DNA of 64,000 bases, from contig NZ_QFWJ01000001.1 of assembly GCF_003336805.1 (NCBI RefSeq), forward strand, positions 1-64,000. Direction: 5' to 3'. This document shows, one piece after another, positions 28,996 to 39,138 of the stretch; position 1 is the stretch's first letter, and every line of letters starts with the position of its first letter. Source of the DNA: Marinospirillum perlucidum (GTDB taxonomy: Bacteria > Pseudomonadota > Gammaproteobacteria > Pseudomonadales > Halomonadaceae). Made by a program: the position numbers and the translations under genes. The notes under the pieces were generated by a model that saw only the letters and a program-made list of their open reading frames with translations, was not told the origin of the DNA and made no database searches.

Positions 28996-30837
28996 ATGAA
29001 TTCCAGCTTCACACTGGGTGATTCCGACGAGCAGCTGCCCGGGGCCTTGGCCACTTTGGAGGAAGACCTTCATCAACTGCTGGATCAACACCAGGTCTTC
29101 AGTGTTTTCCAGCCCCTGGTCAGCCTGCGTGAAAAACGCATCTACGCCTGGGAGGCCCTCTCGCGCGGGCCCCTGGATACGGAACTGCATTCCCCCCTGA
29201 GACTTTTCGGAACGGCTCGTAAGCTGGGCAAGCTGGCAGCGGTGGAACAGCTCTGTCGGGAAAAGGCTGTTCAGGGGTTTGCCGACCAGCAGCTACCGGG
29301 CAAGCTGTTTATCAATGTTTCCCCGGACCTGCTGATCCAACCCGATCACGAGCCCGGTCAGTTGTTGCAGCTACTGGAGATGGCCGGGATACGTCCTGAT
29401 CGCGTGGTGATCGAACTGACCGAAAACCACCCGGTGCATGACTTTGAACTCATGCGCCAGGGGCTGGAGTATTATCGCAACCACGGTTTCCAGGTGGCTC
29501 TGGATGATCTGGGGAATGGTTATTCCGGCCTGCGTCTCTGGTCGGAACTCAAACCCGATTACGTCAAAATCGATCGTCATTTTGTTCATCAGGTGCATCG
29601 GGATAGAGTCAAACAGGATTTTATGCAATCCCTGTTCAAACTGGCGACCTCCCTGGGTACGCGTCTGGTCGCCGAAGGCGTGGAGAGTCAGCAGGAACTG
29701 GAATTCTTGCAACAGCTGGGTGTGGATCTGGTGCAGGGTTACTACTTCGCCTGTCCCCAGGCGAAACCTCTGTTGCAGGTGGATACCTCGGTGATTCCCA
29801 ATCTCTCGATTCGCGGTGGCAGGGACCCGGGTGAGACTTCGGAAAGCATCGGTCTGTTGCTTCGCAAGGTTCGTTGTGTTTCGCCCCAGACCAGTGTGGC
29901 AGAAGCCGTGGAGATTTTTCGCCAGGACGAAGACCTGTTTTCCCTGCCGGTGGTGGACAGTCACCTGCGCCCCCAGGGTTTATTGCTGCGTAACCAGTTG
30001 ATGAAAGAGTTGCTTAGACCTTTCGGCAAGGAAATTATCTATCGGCGTTGTGTTGCCGACATGATGTACCCGCATTCACTGTGCGTTGATATCGATTTCC
30101 CTCTGGAAGAAGTCAGTCGCCTGGTGACAGAACGCCATCGTGACCATCTGGATGATGATTTTATTGTCACCCGCTCGGGTTGTTATGCCGGAATCGGACA
30201 GGTGGTGGATCTTTTGAAAACCATGACTGACCTGAAGGTTCGCAATGCCCGCCAGGCCAATCCGCTGACTCTTTTGCCGGGGAATGGGCCCATCCAGTCC
30301 ACGCTGGATAAATGGCTGGCCGAACAGCAGCCACTGGTGGTCTGCTATCTGGATCTGGATAACTTCAAACCCTTCAACGACACCTATGGCTATGCCCTGG
30401 GCGATCAGCTATTGCAGAGCCTGGCTGCTTGCATGCAGGAGCATCTGCACCCTCAGGATGATTTTATCGGCCATATCGGCGGGGATGATTTTGTTGCCCT
30501 TTGCCGCAGTACTGACTGGCAAAAGCGTATGCTTGAAGTGCTGCATCAGTTCTCGCGGCATAGCCTGGAATACTACCAGGAAGAGGATCGCCAGGCCGGT
30601 GGCATCTATGCCGAAGATCGTTACGGAACCAGGCGCTTTTTTGCCTTTGTCGGGGTTTCCATCGCAGCCTTCAGAACCTTGCCGGGAGACAAGATGACGG
30701 CCCATATGCTGGCAGCCGAGGTGTCTCATCTCAAGCATGCCGCCAAAAAAATCGATGGTTCCAGCCTGATTTACCAGGATCGACAAAGTCTGCAACAACT
30801 CTGGCCGACAAAAAATCCCCCCCAGGATCTGCAGTAG
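28996..30837 (+). CDS. EAL-CBS-GGDEF protein, c-di-GMP signalling
   Basis: The 613-aa protein has an N-terminal EAL phosphodiesterase domain (EAL at residues 53-55, ELTEN, DDLGNGYSG, KIDRHF, AEGVE), a CBS pair (about 290-425) and a C-terminal GGDEF domain with GGDDF at 495-499. The EAL residues are complete, so hydrolysis of c-di-GMP is plausible. The GGDDF motif is conservative but not consensus, so cyclase activity is uncertain. CBS domains commonly bind adenine nucleotides. No membrane segment is visible. Confidence 0.88.
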   Translation: MNSSFTLGDSDEQLPGALATLEEDLHQLLDQHQVFSVFQPLVSLREKRIYAWEALSRGPLDTELHSPLRLFGTARKLGKLAAVEQLCREKAVQGFADQQLPGKLFINVSPDLLIQPDHEPGQLLQLLEMAGIRPDRVVIELTENHPVHDFELMRQGLEYYRNHGFQVALDDLGNGYSGLRLWSELKPDYVKIDRHFVHQVHRDRVKQDFMQSLFKLATSLGTRLVAEGVESQQELEFLQQLGVDLVQGYYFACPQAKPLLQVDTSVIPNLSIRGGRDPGETSESIGLLLRKVRCVSPQTSVAEAVEIFRQDEDLFSLPVVDSHLRPQGLLLRNQLMKELLRPFGKEIIYRRCVADMMYPHSLCVDIDFPLEEVSRLVTERHRDHLDDDFIVTRSGCYAGIGQVVDLLKTMTDLKVRNARQANPLTLLPGNGPIQSTLDKWLAEQQPLVVCYLDLDNFKPFNDTYGYALGDQLLQSLAACMQEHLHPQDDFIGHIGGDDFVALCRSTDWQKRMLEVLHQFSRHSLEYYQEEDRQAGGIYAEDRYGTRRFFAFVGVSIAAFRTLPGDKMTAHMLAAEVSHLKHAAKKIDGSSLIYQDRQSLQQLWPTKNPPQDLQ

Positions 30838-32979: not shown

Positions 32980-33014
32980 TATCGAAGACTGTAAAGCCGG
33001 GACCCGAGCTTTAA

Positions 33015-33080
33015 GAAACCTCTGATTAACTAATGCGCTGCGACCTATAACCTGCGCTCATCACGTTGATCAGAGGCTCT
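33015..33080. repeat. 66-bp deletion derivative of the MITE, copy D
   Basis: It carries the left 21 bp and right ~45 bp of the 190-bp unit with the middle missing, and is flanked by TTAA at 33011-33014 and 33081-33084. The right TTAA contains the stop codon of the 33081-33395 gene on the minus strand. Both terminal repeats are intact. Confidence 0.8.
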
Positions 33081-33395
33081 TTAATCTGTGCCCGCAGCCG
33101 GAGAGCGCTTTTTACGCAGGGCCTTGAGCTGGACAAAGTCGTAAAGATCACTCAGGAAAAACTGTTGCACTTCCGGGTCGCGCAGGTGGCTGAGGGCATC
33201 GGGCTTTTTGGCTAGATAACGCCTGGCCGTGGTTACAAAGGGCTGGGGTAGACTGGCATTAAAATCCGAGGGCTGGATCAGCATGCGCATGACCCGGGCA
33301 AACACCAGCTCCAGCCGGGGAGTCGTCTGACTTTTGATGGCTTCGGCATAATGCTCGAGTAGTTGTTGGTAATCCTCTAATTGCGGCGCTTTCAT
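33081..33395 (-). CDS. Hypothetical protein cotranscribed with the HPP gene
   Basis: I do not recognise this 104-aa, mainly helical protein. It has no signal peptide or membrane segment; the C-terminus is basic (LKALRKKRSP). It overlaps the HPP-family gene by 4 nt (ATGA-type) and is downstream of it, so both are translated from one mRNA. Its stop codon TAA coincides with the target duplication of the MITE copy D. Confidence 0.75.
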   Translation of the reverse strand: MKAPQLEDYQQLLEHYAEAIKSQTTPRLELVFARVMRMLIQPSDFNASLPQPFVTTARRYLAKKPDALSHLRDPEVQQFFLSDLYDFVQLKALRKKRSPAAGTD

Positions 33396-34171
33396 CGTTT
33401 TATCTTGTCTTTCAGTCGGCTCAGCAGACTCTGGGGTTGTTCCAGGCGCTTGGCTTGAACTTCTTTCTCTACCCTCAAAGAGGCCTGGTACTTGGCCTGC
33501 TGGTAGAGCTCATGCAACTCTTCGGTGGTGATATCTCGATAGGAGTCCAGTTCTGCCAAGGCCTTGTCAAAATCTTCCGGCTCAGGGTCGGCAGTAAAAT
33601 TCTTGGGTAGTGGTGGTTCAGTACGCGAAATCAATGCCAGCGAGACAGGGTAACGGCGCCAGGGGAAAAAACTGTTAAAGATAATCGCCACCAGAATCAG
33701 GCTGGCCACGTTCATGAAGACCGGAGTCAAAAGGTATTGGTAACCCATTTCCTGAATCTGTTCACCACCGACCACGGCTACCATGGCTGTAGCGCCACCG
33801 GGAGGATGAATGGAGTGCAGATAATGCATGCTGCCCATGGCCAGGGCCACCGCCAGTGAAGGGGTCCACCAGTCACTGGGAAAAAAGCGGCTCAGGGTGA
33901 CACCGATGGCCGCCGAGATCATGTGGCCGCAAATAACCGGCCAGGGTTGTGACAGGGCACCGTGAGGCATACCGAAGATCAGAATGGCGGTGGCGCCCAT
34001 GGAGGCAATCATCAGTAAAGAGCTGCTGTCTTCCAGATACCAGCTGGAGATCTCGTGAATCGTGATCAGGCCCACCAAGACGCCGGTGATGGAAATCAGC
34101 TTCTCGGTGTGGGAGGTGGAATTTCTGTCAACGCCCAGAAAATGGCCAAGCTGGCTGAAGAAGTTCTGCAT
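33392..34171 (-). CDS. HPP-family integral membrane protein
   Basis: The 259-aa protein has four hydrophobic segments in the N-terminal part. The signature region includes SMGATAILIFGMPHGALSQ (about residues 77-95), then GHMISAAIGV (about 101-110) and HSIHPPGGATAMVAVVGG (about 138-155), the HPP motif. The C-terminal ~80 residues are a charged, coiled-coil-like cytosolic tail. Some HPP proteins in plants and cyanobacteria transport nitrite; here the substrate is unknown. Confidence 0.85.
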   Translation of the reverse strand: MQNFFSQLGHFLGVDRNSTSHTEKLISITGVLVGLITIHEISSWYLEDSSSLLMIASMGATAILIFGMPHGALSQPWPVICGHMISAAIGVTLSRFFPSDWWTPSLAVALAMGSMHYLHSIHPPGGATAMVAVVGGEQIQEMGYQYLLTPVFMNVASLILVAIIFNSFFPWRRYPVSLALISRTEPPLPKNFTADPEPEDFDKALAELDSYRDITTEELHELYQQAKYQASLRVEKEVQAKRLEQPQSLLSRLKDKIKR

Positions 34172-34284
34172 TCTGGCCTCGGTTACCTACTGAAAAATAT
34201 TGGAAGTTTAAAGCATACAAAGCTGCAGCAGGGGGGGCAAGCCATCTGCCTGATTTATGGGTCTTTAAGCTTATAAAGGCGGGT

Positions 34285-35520
34285 TTATTCCAGCGGCCAG
34301 TCCAGCTCTTTACCCAGGGAAGAACTTGGCAGGGCGACACCAAAAGTAAACGCCTTGGGTCTTTCCTCGTTTTGCAGGGCTTCCAGACACCAGCTTTCCA
34401 GACGTTCCTGCAGTTCGGTGATCCTGGTATCTGCTGCTGCCGGAACTATAAAGGCTTTGAGCCGGTCACCTTCGGCTGCTGTCATCAAGCGCACACGGGC
34501 CTCATGAACTTCCGGAAGGCTTTCCAGCAGGCGGGCAATGCGCTGAGGGTAAACATTGATGCCGCCTACCTGAACAGCCTGGTCGAGGCGCCCACAAGGG
34601 TAAAAGTGGCGCTGATCCACCCATTCCAGTTCATCCTGCAGGGGGTAGCGCTGGTGGCGCTGGATATCCAGAAGCAGGTGGGTGTCACGGGTACAGGGCT
34701 GCCAGCGGGGTAGAAGGCGATAAGGAGCCTGGGGGTCGGAGCGAAAGCCCACCCCGGCGGTTTCCGTGGCACCATAGATTTCCATCATCTGTAAGCCCTG
34801 GCTCTGTAGTTGGTGGAAGACTTCAGGAGCACAGGGGCCGGTCGAGGTGAGGCCCAGTAGACCGTCAGGAAAACGCGAAGAGGTTCGGGCCAGTTGTTGC
34901 CAGGCAAAGGGAAAACCAACGATCAAATCACCGGCTTCAAGTTGGGAAGTGGATGCCAGAGCCAGGGCTTCCTGTCCTCTGATGACCGGACAGCCCAGGT
35001 ATTCCGGCAAGAGCACAGAGAAAAGAAAACCATAGATGTGATGGCAGGGGGCCAAGGCCACCACTCTTTTTAGCGGCTGTTGCAGCAGGGCAGTGAAGAG
35101 GCTATCGAAAAACTGGATTTCACCGATCAATTGATCCCAGTCGTGTTCACTGGCTTGAGGCTGGCCGCTACTGCCCGAGGTGGTGAAGGTAAGATGACGG
35201 CTGCCCCTTTTACGGGCGGTGGCTATCACCTCGGCCCATTGGCCCAGGCTGTTATAGCGCAGCAGGTAGTCTTCCAGTCCTGATTCATGAATCTGGAAGA
35301 ATTGCGCAACCCGACTGCCCAGCGCCAGAATTTCCAGGGAATCGGCTTCCAGCGTGGTGCAGTAGCCAGCATCCCGCTGGCGGTAAAAACAGGTTTGCGC
35401 ATCCCAGTCTTCGGTCAGTAGCTGTCTGGGCTGAGACTTGCGCAATTGGCTCAGCTCATCGGCAACCAGTGATTTTATAATCTCCAAAAGGCTGTTTCGG
35501 CTCAGGTCCATGCTGGCCAT
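34285..35520 (-). CDS. pcl: p-Coumarate ligase for PYP chromophore (AMP-binding family)
   Basis: The 411-aa ANL-superfamily enzyme should activate p-coumaric acid to its CoA thioester, the donor for the PYP cofactor. The A3 loop is LTFTTSGSSGQP (about residues 109-120), A5 is MEIYGATETAG (about 242-252), and GRLDQAVQVGGINVYPQRI lies at about 314-332. It is 14 bp downstream of pyp on the same strand, matching the pyp-pCL order of Halorhodospira. No tyrosine ammonia lyase, the enzyme that makes p-coumarate, is in the window. Substrate assignment rests on this neighbour; the sequence alone shows an acyl-AMP ligase. Confidence 0.85.
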   Translation of the reverse strand: MASMDLSRNSLLEIIKSLVADELSQLRKSQPRQLLTEDWDAQTCFYRQRDAGYCTTLEADSLEILALGSRVAQFFQIHESGLEDYLLRYNSLGQWAEVIATARKRGSRHLTFTTSGSSGQPQASEHDWDQLIGEIQFFDSLFTALLQQPLKRVVALAPCHHIYGFLFSVLLPEYLGCPVIRGQEALALASTSQLEAGDLIVGFPFAWQQLARTSSRFPDGLLGLTSTGPCAPEVFHQLQSQGLQMMEIYGATETAGVGFRSDPQAPYRLLPRWQPCTRDTHLLLDIQRHQRYPLQDELEWVDQRHFYPCGRLDQAVQVGGINVYPQRIARLLESLPEVHEARVRLMTAAEGDRLKAFIVPAAADTRITELQERLESWCLEALQNEERPKAFTFGVALPSSSLGKELDWPLE

Positions 35521-35533
35521 AGTCGCTCCTTAG

Positions 35534-35911
35534 CTAAAGCCGTTTGACGAGTATCCAGAAGCTGGCTTCACGGGCAGACTTTTGCATGTGAATTTTGACC
35601 CGGGTCGGGCGCATTACATAATCGAAGGTGTATTCAAAAATGACGTTCAAGCGTCCCTGGGCAACACCTTCATCAAAACGCCCCTTGAATTCCGGCTGGT
35701 CAGTACAGGGGGCAATATCGCGAAAAAAATTCCTGCCGATGACCTGCTCCGGCTGGCGACCGGTAATGGCCGCTTCAGTGGCGTTGAATTGAAGGATAGT
35801 ACCTTCTGCGTCGAGTTGTATGGCACCAAAGGCCAGTTCATCCAGTTCTTCCGCAGTCATTTTCGAGAGGACATTTTCCAGACTGCTGGAATCAAAAGAC
35901 AATAACTCCAT
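35534..35911 (-). CDS. pyp: Photoactive yellow protein with Phe at position 42
   Basis: The 125-aa PAS-type blue-light sensor aligns without gaps, from residue 1 to 125, to Halorhodospira halophila PYP. The chromophore attachment Cys69 is in APCTD, and Glu46, Thr50, Arg52, Pro68, Tyr94, Phe96 and Met100 are all kept. Position 42, normally a Tyr whose hydroxyl hydrogen-bonds the p-coumaroyl phenolate, is Phe here (codon TTC at 35786-35788). The N-terminal cap (about residues 1-28) is complete. The p-coumarate ligase gene follows in the same operon. PYP acts in the cytoplasm, in phototaxis or gene control depending on the organism; the partner is not evident. Confidence 0.96.
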
Positions 35912-36259
35912 ATAAACCCTTGCATAACAGTGAGATAAACAAAATTATCACCAGTGTATAGAAAAGCCGGAAGGGGTTTGTATCAAAAAGCCTTAACCGG
36001 CTAGCTTTGAAGCCTAGCAGGCCTGACCGGGATTGTTTGGCTAGATGGGCGCCTGCTGTCAGGCCTGGCCTACTACTTTTCTTTGTCGGTGAAATTCTTG
36101 TTCAACTAAGACTGGTGCGCATAGGTTTATGTTAAATATTTGTACAGTTATTTTGTGTTGGTTGTTGCATCCACTAAACTGCTATAAAACGCTTGTTAGC
36201 TGTAAGATGCCTTGGGTAAAAACGACAAAACAACTCTGTACAAGAATCAGGAGCCTTCC
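35912..36259. other. Divergent intergenic region between pyp and the radical-SAM gene
   Basis: About 350 bp with no credible gene. It must hold the promoters for pyp on the left and the radical-SAM gene on the right. An A+T-rich run near 36120-36190 is a likely promoter for the right-hand gene. No recognisable light-, oxygen- or arsenic-responsive operator was seen. Confidence 0.4.
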
Positions 36260-37222
36260 ATGCACGCTATGCTTCCCCGCTTGATTGCAACGGATTTTCC
36301 CCCTCTAATCCGGGGAGAACTGGAGGTGTTGCAGGCCAATCTCACCTTGACCTGCAACCAGTCCTGCCTGCATTGCCATGTGGCCTCCAGTCCCAAACGC
36401 AAGGAGGCGATGAGCCAGGAAACCCTGGATTTACTTCTGGCACTGCTGGACCGTCATCCCGGCATTCATACTCTGGATGTCACTGGTGGGGCGCCAGAAT
36501 TGCACCCCCGGTTTCGTTGGCTGGTCGAGGAAGCCAGAAAACGTCAGGTTAAGGTGATCGATCGCTGTAACCTCACGATTCTCAGTGAGCCAGGGCAGGA
36601 AACGACGGCTGAATTTCTGGCTGAGCAGCAGGTTGAGGTGGTGGCTTCCCTGCCCTGTTATTCGGCAGCCAATGTTGATGCACAACGGGGAGACGGGGTT
36701 TTTGAGGCCAGTCTGGCCGGGCTTAAGCAGCTGAATGCCCTGGGCTATGGTCAGGAGGGTTCCGGCCTGCAGCTGAGTCTGGTGTATAACCCCCTGGGAC
36801 CGAGTCTGCCGCCTGCCCAGGAAGGTCTACAGGAAGCCTACCAGAAGGAGCTTTACGAGCATTTCGGTATCCGTTTCAATCGTCTGCTGACGCTGGCGAA
36901 TATGCCCATCCAGCGCTTTGGCAGCACTCTGATTAGCCGGGGCGAGTTTGATGCCTATATGGATTTGCTCAAGCAGAGCTACAATCTGGCCACCCTGCCC
37001 GGAGTGATGTGCCGCAACACCCTTTCGGTGGATTATCGTGGCCAGGTGTATGATTGTGATTTCAATCAGCAACTGGGCTTGCCCCTGGGCGAGGCGCGTG
37101 ACGGGGTCTACCTGAAGGATATTCTGGATGCTTCCCTGCAAGGGGAGCCCATTCGTGTCGCCGAGCACTGTTATGGTTGTACTGCCGGTCAGGGCAGTAG
37201 TTGTGGTGGTGCCTTGTCATGA
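36260..37222 (+). CDS. arsS: Radical-SAM protein of the ArsS (DUF3641) family
   Basis: The 320-aa enzyme has the cluster motif CNQSCLHCH (about residues 34-42, CxxxCxxC) and the SAM-binding VTGGAPEL (about 77-84). A Cys-rich C-terminal region (MCRNTLS, YDCDFN, HCYGCTAGQGSSCGG) is typical of the DUF3641 extension. The family is linked to arsenosugar synthesis, where an ArsS-type enzyme adds the adenosyl group to dimethylated arsenic. An arsM methyltransferase is not in the window. ATG 36260, after AGGAG, is preferred to TTG 36212. The next gene starts 39 nt later. Confidence 0.82.
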   Translation: MHAMLPRLIATDFPPLIRGELEVLQANLTLTCNQSCLHCHVASSPKRKEAMSQETLDLLLALLDRHPGIHTLDVTGGAPELHPRFRWLVEEARKRQVKVIDRCNLTILSEPGQETTAEFLAEQQVEVVASLPCYSAANVDAQRGDGVFEASLAGLKQLNALGYGQEGSGLQLSLVYNPLGPSLPPAQEGLQEAYQKELYEHFGIRFNRLLTLANMPIQRFGSTLISRGEFDAYMDLLKQSYNLATLPGVMCRNTLSVDYRGQVYDCDFNQQLGLPLGEARDGVYLKDILDASLQGEPIRVAEHCYGCTAGQGSSCGGALS

Positions 37223-37261
37223 GGCCGACCCCTTAAGAAGCAAGCAACGAGGAATCAATTC

Positions 37262-38338
37262 ATGACCTGGGAAGCAGCCTTGCGGCTGGGCATTTTTTTA
37301 CTGGTTTTATTGGTGGTGGCCAGCCTGGAATTCTGGCGGCCCAAGCGTAGCTGGCGGGAAGCCCGTAAAACCCGCTGGGGCATCAACCTGGGATTGATCG
37401 GCCTGAATGTGATCCTGCAGCGCCTGACCCTGGGAGCGGCGGCGGTGCTCATGGCTGTGCATGCCCAGAGCGAGGGCTGGGGGCTGCTCAATCTGGTTGA
37501 CTGGCCGGGTTGGTTGACCTTCCTGGTGGGCCTGCTGCTACTGGATCTGGCGATCTACCTGCAGCATGTCCTGGCTCATGCCCTGCCGTTTTTCTGGCGC
37601 TTGCATCAGGTACACCATGCTGACCTGGATCTGGATGTTACCAGCGGGCTGCGTTTTCATCCGCTGGAAATCCTGCTGTCACTGATTTACAAGGTGCTGG
37701 TCGTGGCTGCCCTGGGCTTGAATCCGCTGACTGTCCTGGTGTTCGAGGCACTGCTGAATGCGGCTTCCATGTTCAGCCATGCCAATATCCGCCTGCATCC
37801 CCGGCTGGAGCAGGTGCTGCGCTGGTTTATCATTACCCCGGATATGCACCGTATCCATCACTCCGTCTATCGTCAGGAAACCGATAGCAATTTTGGTTTT
37901 TTCCTCTCTGTCTGGGATCGTCTTCTGGGCACCTATACCCAGGCACCCAGGGACGGGCATTTGCAGATGGATCTGGGCTTGGCACCCTATCGTGATCAGA
38001 CGCGTCTGGGCCTGGTCTCCCTGCTGATGATGCCTTTTCGCTCACCTGGCGGGGGGAGTCAATCAGAAGCCGAAGAGGCGTTTGCGCAGCGGTTTAATCG
38101 CCATCAACACCAGCAGGGCCAGAGCGATCCCTTCAAGGGGCGCGGGCAGGAGTTCCTGAACACCGGTGGCCTGGGCGACGGGGTTCCAGGTAAAAAACTG
38201 GAGAAGCTGATCCAGCAGCCAACCGAGCAGAACACTGACCGAGACAATCGAGAGCAGATAGACGCTCAGCGCGCGACTACCCAGTTCCCGGCGCAGTACC
38301 CCCAGGGTCGCCAGACTGGTCACCGGTCCAGCGAGTAG
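37262..38338 (+). CDS. Sterol desaturase / fatty-acid hydroxylase family protein with aberrant C-terminus
   Basis: The 358-aa diiron membrane enzyme has HVLAHALPFFWRLHQVHHAD (about residues 103-122) and HRIHHSV (about 197-203), the His boxes of the family, with about four hydrophobic segments before and between them. Residues 1 to about 262 match the normal length. The last 90 or so residues, from about GGGSQSEAEE, are hydrophilic and lie antisense to the 3' end of the convergent permease gene, overlapping it by 276 nt. The natural stop appears lost. It sits 39 nt after the radical-SAM gene and may be cotranscribed. Confidence 0.83.
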   Translation: MTWEAALRLGIFLLVLLVVASLEFWRPKRSWREARKTRWGINLGLIGLNVILQRLTLGAAAVLMAVHAQSEGWGLLNLVDWPGWLTFLVGLLLLDLAIYLQHVLAHALPFFWRLHQVHHADLDLDVTSGLRFHPLEILLSLIYKVLVVAALGLNPLTVLVFEALLNAASMFSHANIRLHPRLEQVLRWFIITPDMHRIHHSVYRQETDSNFGFFLSVWDRLLGTYTQAPRDGHLQMDLGLAPYRDQTRLGLVSLLMMPFRSPGGGSQSEAEEAFAQRFNRHQHQQGQSDPFKGRGQEFLNTGGLGDGVPGKKLEKLIQQPTEQNTDRDNREQIDAQRATTQFPAQYPQGRQTGHRSSE

Positions 38339-39100
38339 AAATACCAGGGCCATGCCTGGGGAAATGCCGGTTAACAGCAGACCTGCAGCCAGGGGAGTCG
38401 CCGCCGTGGCGCAGATGTAGAGGGGGATACCCACCAGGGCCATGAGTAGCAGCGGCCAGAAATCGCCCTGAACCCCGGCCAGGGTTTCCGGTGGCAGGAA
38501 GGTGACCAGCACACCTGCCAGCAGCAGCCCGGCAAAAACCCAGAGGCTGATGTCATCGAGCAGATCACTGAAGGCATAAACCAGTCCCTGGCGCAGCTTG
38601 GCACTCGTCCCTGTAGGAGGCGCTGCGGGCGTTTCATCACAGCAACCGGATTTTGAGCAGCAGCTTTTATTGGCTGCTTCGGTTTGAACGCCAGCGGCAG
38701 GTTCGCAGGTGCGACCGACCAGCCAGCCGGTGGTTATGGCGGTAACCAGGGCACCCACCAGACGTGCCAGGGTCATCACTGGGCCCAGGAGCACGCTGGT
38801 CAGCAACAGTGAGTCCACGCCCACGCCGGGGGTGGCAATCAAAAAAGAGGTGGTGGGGCCGCGACCGGCTCCGCCACGATGCAGGGCCAGTGCCGTCGGA
38901 ATAGAACCACAGGAACACAGGGGCAAAGGCATGCCGATAATAGCTGCCCGCAGGATACTGGCCAATCCCTGACCGCCCATCCAACGTTGCAGGAGACTTT
39001 CCGGCAGCCAGGCCTTGATCAGCCCAGCCACCACCAAGCCAAGTAGCAACCAGGGCGCTGCACTGAGAGCAAGGCTTAAAATCGAATTCAGCTCCTGCAT
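38063..39100 (-). CDS. SO_0444-type permease, probable heavy-metal efflux
   Basis: The 346-aa permease has eight or more hydrophobic segments in two halves. The first half has GMPLPLCSCGSIPTALALHR (about residues 56-75), the second GIPLYICATAATPLAAGLLL. The Cys pair CSC in a pore motif and a cytoplasmic CCSKSGCC loop (about residues 147-154) suggest metal binding. Family members are described as Cu/Zn efflux permeases. ATG 39100 is favoured because GAGG lies about 8 nt upstream. A MerR-type promoter at 39139-39169 lies directly upstream. Confidence 0.85.
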   Translation of the reverse strand: MQELNSILSLALSAAPWLLLGLVVAGLIKAWLPESLLQRWMGGQGLASILRAAIIGMPLPLCSCGSIPTALALHRGGAGRGPTTSFLIATPGVGVDSLLLTSVLLGPVMTLARLVGALVTAITTGWLVGRTCEPAAGVQTEAANKSCCSKSGCCDETPAAPPTGTSAKLRQGLVYAFSDLLDDISLWVFAGLLLAGVLVTFLPPETLAGVQGDFWPLLLMALVGIPLYICATAATPLAAGLLLTGISPGMALVFLLAGPVTSLATLGVLRRELGSRALSVYLLSIVSVSVLLGWLLDQLLQFFTWNPVAQATGVQELLPAPLEGIALALLVLMAIKPLRKRLFGF

Positions 39101-39138
39101 CTTCATCACCTCGTTTATTGGTTTCGGGATTACTGCTT

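Follow-up and report, generated by a model that had tools for sequence, protein, structure and literature searches.

Does a photoactive yellow protein (PYP) that naturally carries phenylalanine in place of Tyr42 still work as a light receptor, and does the change tune its colour? This question is raised by a gene in the window, a stretch of 64,000 nucleotides of the Marinospirillum perlucidum genome (contig NZ_QFWJ01000001.1, positions 1 to 64,000). The Y42F mutant of PYP has been studied extensively, and the original prediction was that its natural counterpart would show spectral tuning in a wild sensor. The genes and codons on which the argument depends are as follows.

33392..34171, reverse strand: HPP-family membrane protein gene (PF04982), with a 76% identical gene beyond pyp-pcl-lyase in M. 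celere
34285..35520, reverse strand: pcl, PYP-type 4-coumarate--CoA ligase (PCL), 411 aa (TIGR02372 match, 314.7 bits)
35534..35911, reverse strand: pyp, photoactive yellow protein, 125 aa, with Phe42 (TIGR02373, alignment with PYPs in the PDB, AlphaFold model)
35705..35707, reverse strand: codon 69, Cys69, the chromophore attachment site
35768..35779, reverse strand: codons 45-48, Thr45, Glu46, Ala47 and Ala48 (Glu46 kept, three neighbours altered)
35786..35788, reverse strand: codon 42, TTC for Phe (Tyr in 37/37 other loci of the tree set)
36257..37222, forward strand: arsS, radical SAM gene (TIGR04167), on the other flank, with an 85% identical counterpart at the M. celere locus

Results

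The pyp gene and its product

The pyp open reading frame is unbroken from its ATG start to its TAG stop, and the 125-aa product scores 173.6 bits against the TIGR02373 "photoactive yellow protein" profile, for which the curated cut-off is 143.05 bits. As originally described, it aligns without gaps over residues 1-125 with the Halorhodospira halophila PYP (P16113, also 125 aa; 62% identity), codon 42 reads TTC on the reverse strand, and Glu46, Thr50, Arg52, Cys69, Tyr94 and Met100 are shared by the two proteins. Differences of the M. perlucidum protein from its H. halophila counterpart include Phe42, Thr45, Ala47, Ala48, Ile66, Phe118 and Leu121. It has the cysteine that Xing 2022 (PMC9664959) uses as the mark of p-coumarate attachment through a thioester. 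Its Glu46/Tyr42 hydrogen-bonding pair is incomplete, with Glu46 kept and Tyr42 replaced by Phe; this pair is typical of PYPs rather than defining for them, as published surveys include Phe42 proteins in the family.

An AlphaFold model computed from 25 aligned sequences (mean pLDDT 86.1) has the PAS fold of PYP, the best structural match being 2phy (TM 0.94, rmsd 1.5). The Y42F mutant, 1f9i, is the second-best match in a PDB sequence search and ranks sixth among the structural matches to the model; its Phe42 is engineered, whereas that of M. perlucidum is natural. These results suggest a working, single-domain blue-light PYP with predicted chromophore binding and photocycle, a reading that, taken jointly with the whole of the explanation preferred here, we hold to be moderately probable.

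Residue 42 is not the only altered position. A45T, G47A and D48A flank Glu46, all three in columns that are invariant in 14 canonical PYPs, and V66I lies in the pocket. Among the 71 columns invariant in these 14 proteins, 15 are altered in M. perlucidum. The corresponding count for the pocket is one out of 13, residue 42 itself, with a list of pocket columns that is in part what we take to be the pocket of the H. halophila protein. The changes cluster near Glu46 (Y42F, A45T, G47A and D48A), affecting 4/7 invariant columns at 42-48 versus 11/64 elsewhere (Fisher p=0.03, for a region picked after inspection of the data).

Natural occurrence of Phe42

Natural Phe42 in PYPs is already published and is thus not new here. 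Phe is the commonest substitution of Tyr42 in the survey of Xing 2022 (PMC9664959), being found in approximately 9% of 789 homologs, in branches of both clade A and clade B, and Dohmen 2025 (PMC12826048) reports it in 8.9% of 984 homologs; the change from Tyr42 to Phe is the same in these proteins and in M. perlucidum. According to PMC9664959, among the 155 RefSeq homologs that TIGR02373 matches, more than 97% keep Tyr42, Glu46 and Cys69, and this same profile also matches the M. perlucidum PYP. The replacement of Tyr42 by Phe, in a pocket that is canonical in other respects, is upheld.

Our own sample comprised 51 homologs after matches with E above 1e-9, with internal stops or shorter than 80 aa were dropped and duplicates were merged; 49 of them, M. 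perlucidum included, bear Cys69. Phe42 is present in four of these 49 distinct proteins (M. perlucidum counted), each of which has Glu46. Thr50 and Arg52 occur together in 33 of the 49, and in this subgroup only M. perlucidum has Phe42; the remaining 16 contain the other three cases. The latter (L037, L072 and the second copy in L101) are divergent, with Ala or Ser at position 50 and Leu at position 52, whereas M. perlucidum has Thr50 and Arg52. The second copy in L101, from Caballeronia sp. SBC2 (L101:8054-8366; Phe42 and Cys69), is annotated as a "phosphonate transporter", a label also borne by three other PYP-like plasmid matches. L097, one of the two sampled homologs without Cys69, has Phe42 as well.

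A PYP matching TIGR02373 is present in four of eight Marinospirillum genomes. The three besides M. perlucidum, namely M. alkaliphilum, M. celere and the MAG CSBr16_214, hold four PYP genes, and all four encode Tyr42, as does every one of the 37 other tree-set loci. The alignment proposed earlier, asking whether close relatives share Phe42, is hereby answered in the negative; Phe42 as a genus trait is rejected, as the congeners carry Tyr42. Within the sequences compared, Phe42 is private to the M. perlucidum lineage. The MAG (L006/L024 and L008) has two PYPs, one of them only 24% identical to the M. perlucidum PYP, with Cys69 kept and a Phe aligned to Tyr94. A literature search pairing Marinospirillum with photoactive yellow protein found no paper.

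The pyp-pcl locus

The pcl gene starts 13 bases past the pyp stop codon, with a ribosome-site-like sequence (AAGGAG), and pyp-pcl is a candidate two-gene operon. Promoter and terminator scans returned one site each, under the means of 2.2 and 3.4 for shuffled sequence. Like all four Marinospirillum copies, the M. perlucidum PCL scores just below the TIGR02372 cut-off (314.7 versus 334.7 bits), and PCL is present (E<=1e-30) in exactly those four of the eight genomes of the genus that have a TIGR02373 PYP. The order pyp then pcl is also that of H. halophila, described as an operon in PMC12826048, and the pair is found in M. celere and M. alkaliphilum, which belong to the same genus but have Tyr42.

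The PYP chromophore operon is of the form pyp-pcl-TAL. The adjacent PCL is there in M. perlucidum, and a tyrosine ammonia lyase was found neither in the operon nor in the genome, whereas H. halophila has a lyase gene in its operon (PMC12826048). A search with PF00221, which covers tyrosine, histidine and phenylalanine lyases, was positive in five of 14 control genomes and gave no match at E<=0.001 in the M. perlucidum genome, which is 98.98% complete; a lyase gene on the missing part of the assembly is possible. The M. alkaliphilum genome gave no PF00221 match either. A lyase loss causing Phe42 is unsupported, as M. alkaliphilum keeps Tyr42.

The outer flanks of the M. perlucidum locus, arsS (85% identical) and the HPP gene (76%), recur in M. 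celere, where a lyase is kept beside pcl. There, pyp, pcl, the lyase (PF00221) and NfeD and band-7 genes stand inside the flanks, and another two ORFs separate arsS from pyp; in M. perlucidum the flanked interval has none of these additional genes.

Several observations concern the surroundings. In M. perlucidum, a fatty-acid-hydroxylase ORF overlaps the 3' end of an ArsP_1 permease gene in antisense by 276 bases (ORFs 37262-38338, forward, and 38063-39109, reverse), and the M. celere locus (L013) has a similar tail-to-tail overlap of 231 bases by tblastn ranges. An EAL-CBS-GGDEF protein gene with the sequence GGDDF (28996-30837, forward) lies outside the pyp operon, on the strand opposite to pcl and about 3.4 kb beyond its 3' end. 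Genes for c-di-GMP turn up repeatedly as PYP neighbours in published surveys. In M. alkaliphilum, a MASE1-GGDEF-EAL gene (L012:7527-9932) directly follows pyp-pcl and is a candidate for the PYP output in Marinospirillum.

Evolutionary rates, trees and searches

Nine close canonical PYPs (L003, L010-L014, L016, L017 and L030) share 72-98% identity among themselves and 57-63% with the M. perlucidum PYP; the PYPs of M. celere and M. alkaliphilum are 86% identical to each other and 62% to that of M. perlucidum. The divergence of PCL is like that of its peers (53% identity between M. perlucidum and M. celere, 54% between M. celere and M. alkaliphilum). In relative-rate tests of M. perlucidum versus M. 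celere with an Idiomarina outgroup, PYP gave counts of 34:2 (p=1e-7) and PCL counts of 27:33 (p=0.44), the tests presupposing an outgroup that is truly outside, a placement that the PYP trees do not settle. A farther outgroup (G504) gave a weaker PYP excess versus M. celere (24:7, p=0.002), and the excess was non-significant against three of six comparators (Thiorhodovibrio, Modicisalibacter and Halomonas; p=0.07-0.13). One of 18 PCL comparisons gave p=0.038, with the M. perlucidum gene as the slower one; the idea that PCL is drifting as well is unsupported by these counts. Evolution of the M. perlucidum PYP seems, from these comparisons, to have outpaced that of the neighbouring PCL. The main PYP of the MAG CSBr16_214, with Tyr42, has the same rate excess (38:2).

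In the PCL tree, M. perlucidum groups with the Marinospirillum, Halomonas and Thiorhodovibrio copies (support 97/93). The PYP trees, one of which was computed with five long rows left out (39 rows reduced to 34), put its PYP on a long branch outside this PCL-defined group, beside other long branches and without firm support. Placement of the PYP with the PCL clade was not rejected by the AU test (p=0.18 and 0.13; 0.33 for a smaller set).

Searches of genome contigs with the single protein matched a pattern in 90 stretches with no relative among them, and an alignment-based search (A1) gave 22 loci. In viral contigs, 96 stretches matched, none a relative. Thirteen plasmid records had PYP-like matches, all below 60% identity, of which three were retrieved; a DNA search of plasmids with positions 33000-37300 gave 50 records, the best five of which match inside the arsS part only.

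Discussion

If the protein works as its sequence suggests, PCL would activate p-coumarate, which would then be loaded on Cys69. The p-coumarate would be taken up from the surroundings: it is probably imported, because no aromatic amino acid lyase was found in the genome. Import of this compound by bacteria without a lyase was already raised by Dohmen 2025 (PMC12826048).

With Phe42, only one of the two hydrogen-bond donors to the chromophore phenolate would remain. Thr50 would partly make up for the missing donor, as in the engineered Y42F protein, in which Thr50 takes the place of Tyr42 as hydrogen-bond partner and the absorption is red-shifted (PMC9664959). The red shift of engineered Y42F, on which the original prediction drew, is borne out by the cited literature: the mutant absorbs at 458 nm as cited in PMC9062252, and PMC12826048 gives species near 446 and 400 nm in equilibrium, so that the two sources disagree on the main band (458 versus near 446 nm) and the latter adds the second species near 400 nm.

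The largest computed terms holding the proton on Glu46, and not on the chromophore, come, according to PMC10722396, from Arg52 (+1.9 pKa units), Tyr42 (+1.4) and Asp48 (+1.1); these values apply to the H. halophila protein and may not add. The M. perlucidum PYP is without two of these three residues, with Phe for Tyr42 and Ala for Asp48. Of the other 48 homologs with Cys69, 15 have Ala48, and each of these has Tyr42; Ala48, being common alongside Tyr42, may have a small effect. A mixed dark state would be expected because Asp48 is lost besides Tyr42: the main band would be red-shifted to about 455-460 nm, and a second form, protonated or "intermediate", would absorb near 390-400 nm, the mixture being pH-dependent and the photocycle rate altered. 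Such a spectrum, shifted and probably mixed, may amount to the spectral tuning originally predicted. Position 42 is thought unlikely to serve tuning in most PYPs, according to PMC12826048, and other changes in this fast-evolving PYP may compensate, or the fast evolution could mean decay.

A stronger version is possible, if on the doubtful side: a natural two-form PYP that has lost Tyr42 and Asp48 and kept Thr50 and Arg52, and whose dark state would be divided between an anionic chromophore, red-shifted, and a protonated one absorbing in the near-UV/violet. This protein would be a pH- or two-colour-sensitive receptor with a scavenged chromophore, and its fast evolution would reflect a changed use.

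The same rate excess could instead mark relaxed constraint: once the tyrosine ammonia lyase was lost, the sensor would have begun to drift, and Phe42 would be a mildly deleterious change among many, with no role in tuning. The disparity between PYP (34:2) and PCL (27:33), the alteration of 15/71 otherwise invariant columns, and the lyase of the syntenic M. celere locus that was not found in the M. perlucidum genome are all consistent with this. However, 12 of the 13 invariant pocket columns are kept, the pyp frame is intact and PCL has no rate excess; M. alkaliphilum, without a PF00221 match, has a Tyr42 PYP with no rate excess, and the PYP of the Marinospirillum MAG (L024) is fast although that genome encodes a lyase. 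We consider drift of this kind unlikely.

Gene replacement, in which pcl is original but the pyp next to it was supplanted by a divergent copy from another lineage that brought Phe42 with it, would account for the differing positions of M. perlucidum in the PCL and PYP trees, and the GC3 of pyp (0.544) is the lowest of 13 local genes examined (others 0.593-0.704). This is countered by the AU tests, by outer flanks that are the same as in M. celere, by the codon adaptation of pyp (0.614, inside the local range of 0.609-0.690), and by the identities of the retrieved relatives, none above 63%. Replacement appears improbable, and acceleration of the PYP in place is likelier. That codon 42 reflects a sequencing or assembly error, TTC and TAC differing by one base, is very improbable: the frame is intact, and the gathering of changes around Glu46 makes residue 42 no isolated oddity.

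The preferred reading remains a working PYP, probably changed in place, with a shifted and probably mixed spectrum. These findings mean that: Phe42 in M. perlucidum is of a known kind but unusual in the near-textbook Thr50/Arg52 subgroup, which makes this protein a test case for spectral tuning and not a new type of sensor; a ligase gene without any lyase gene makes chromophore scavenging testable; and a natural Phe42 combined with Thr50 and Arg52, with Tyr42 congeners at hand, one of them syntenic, would show whether a mixed spectrum is tolerated, corrected or used.
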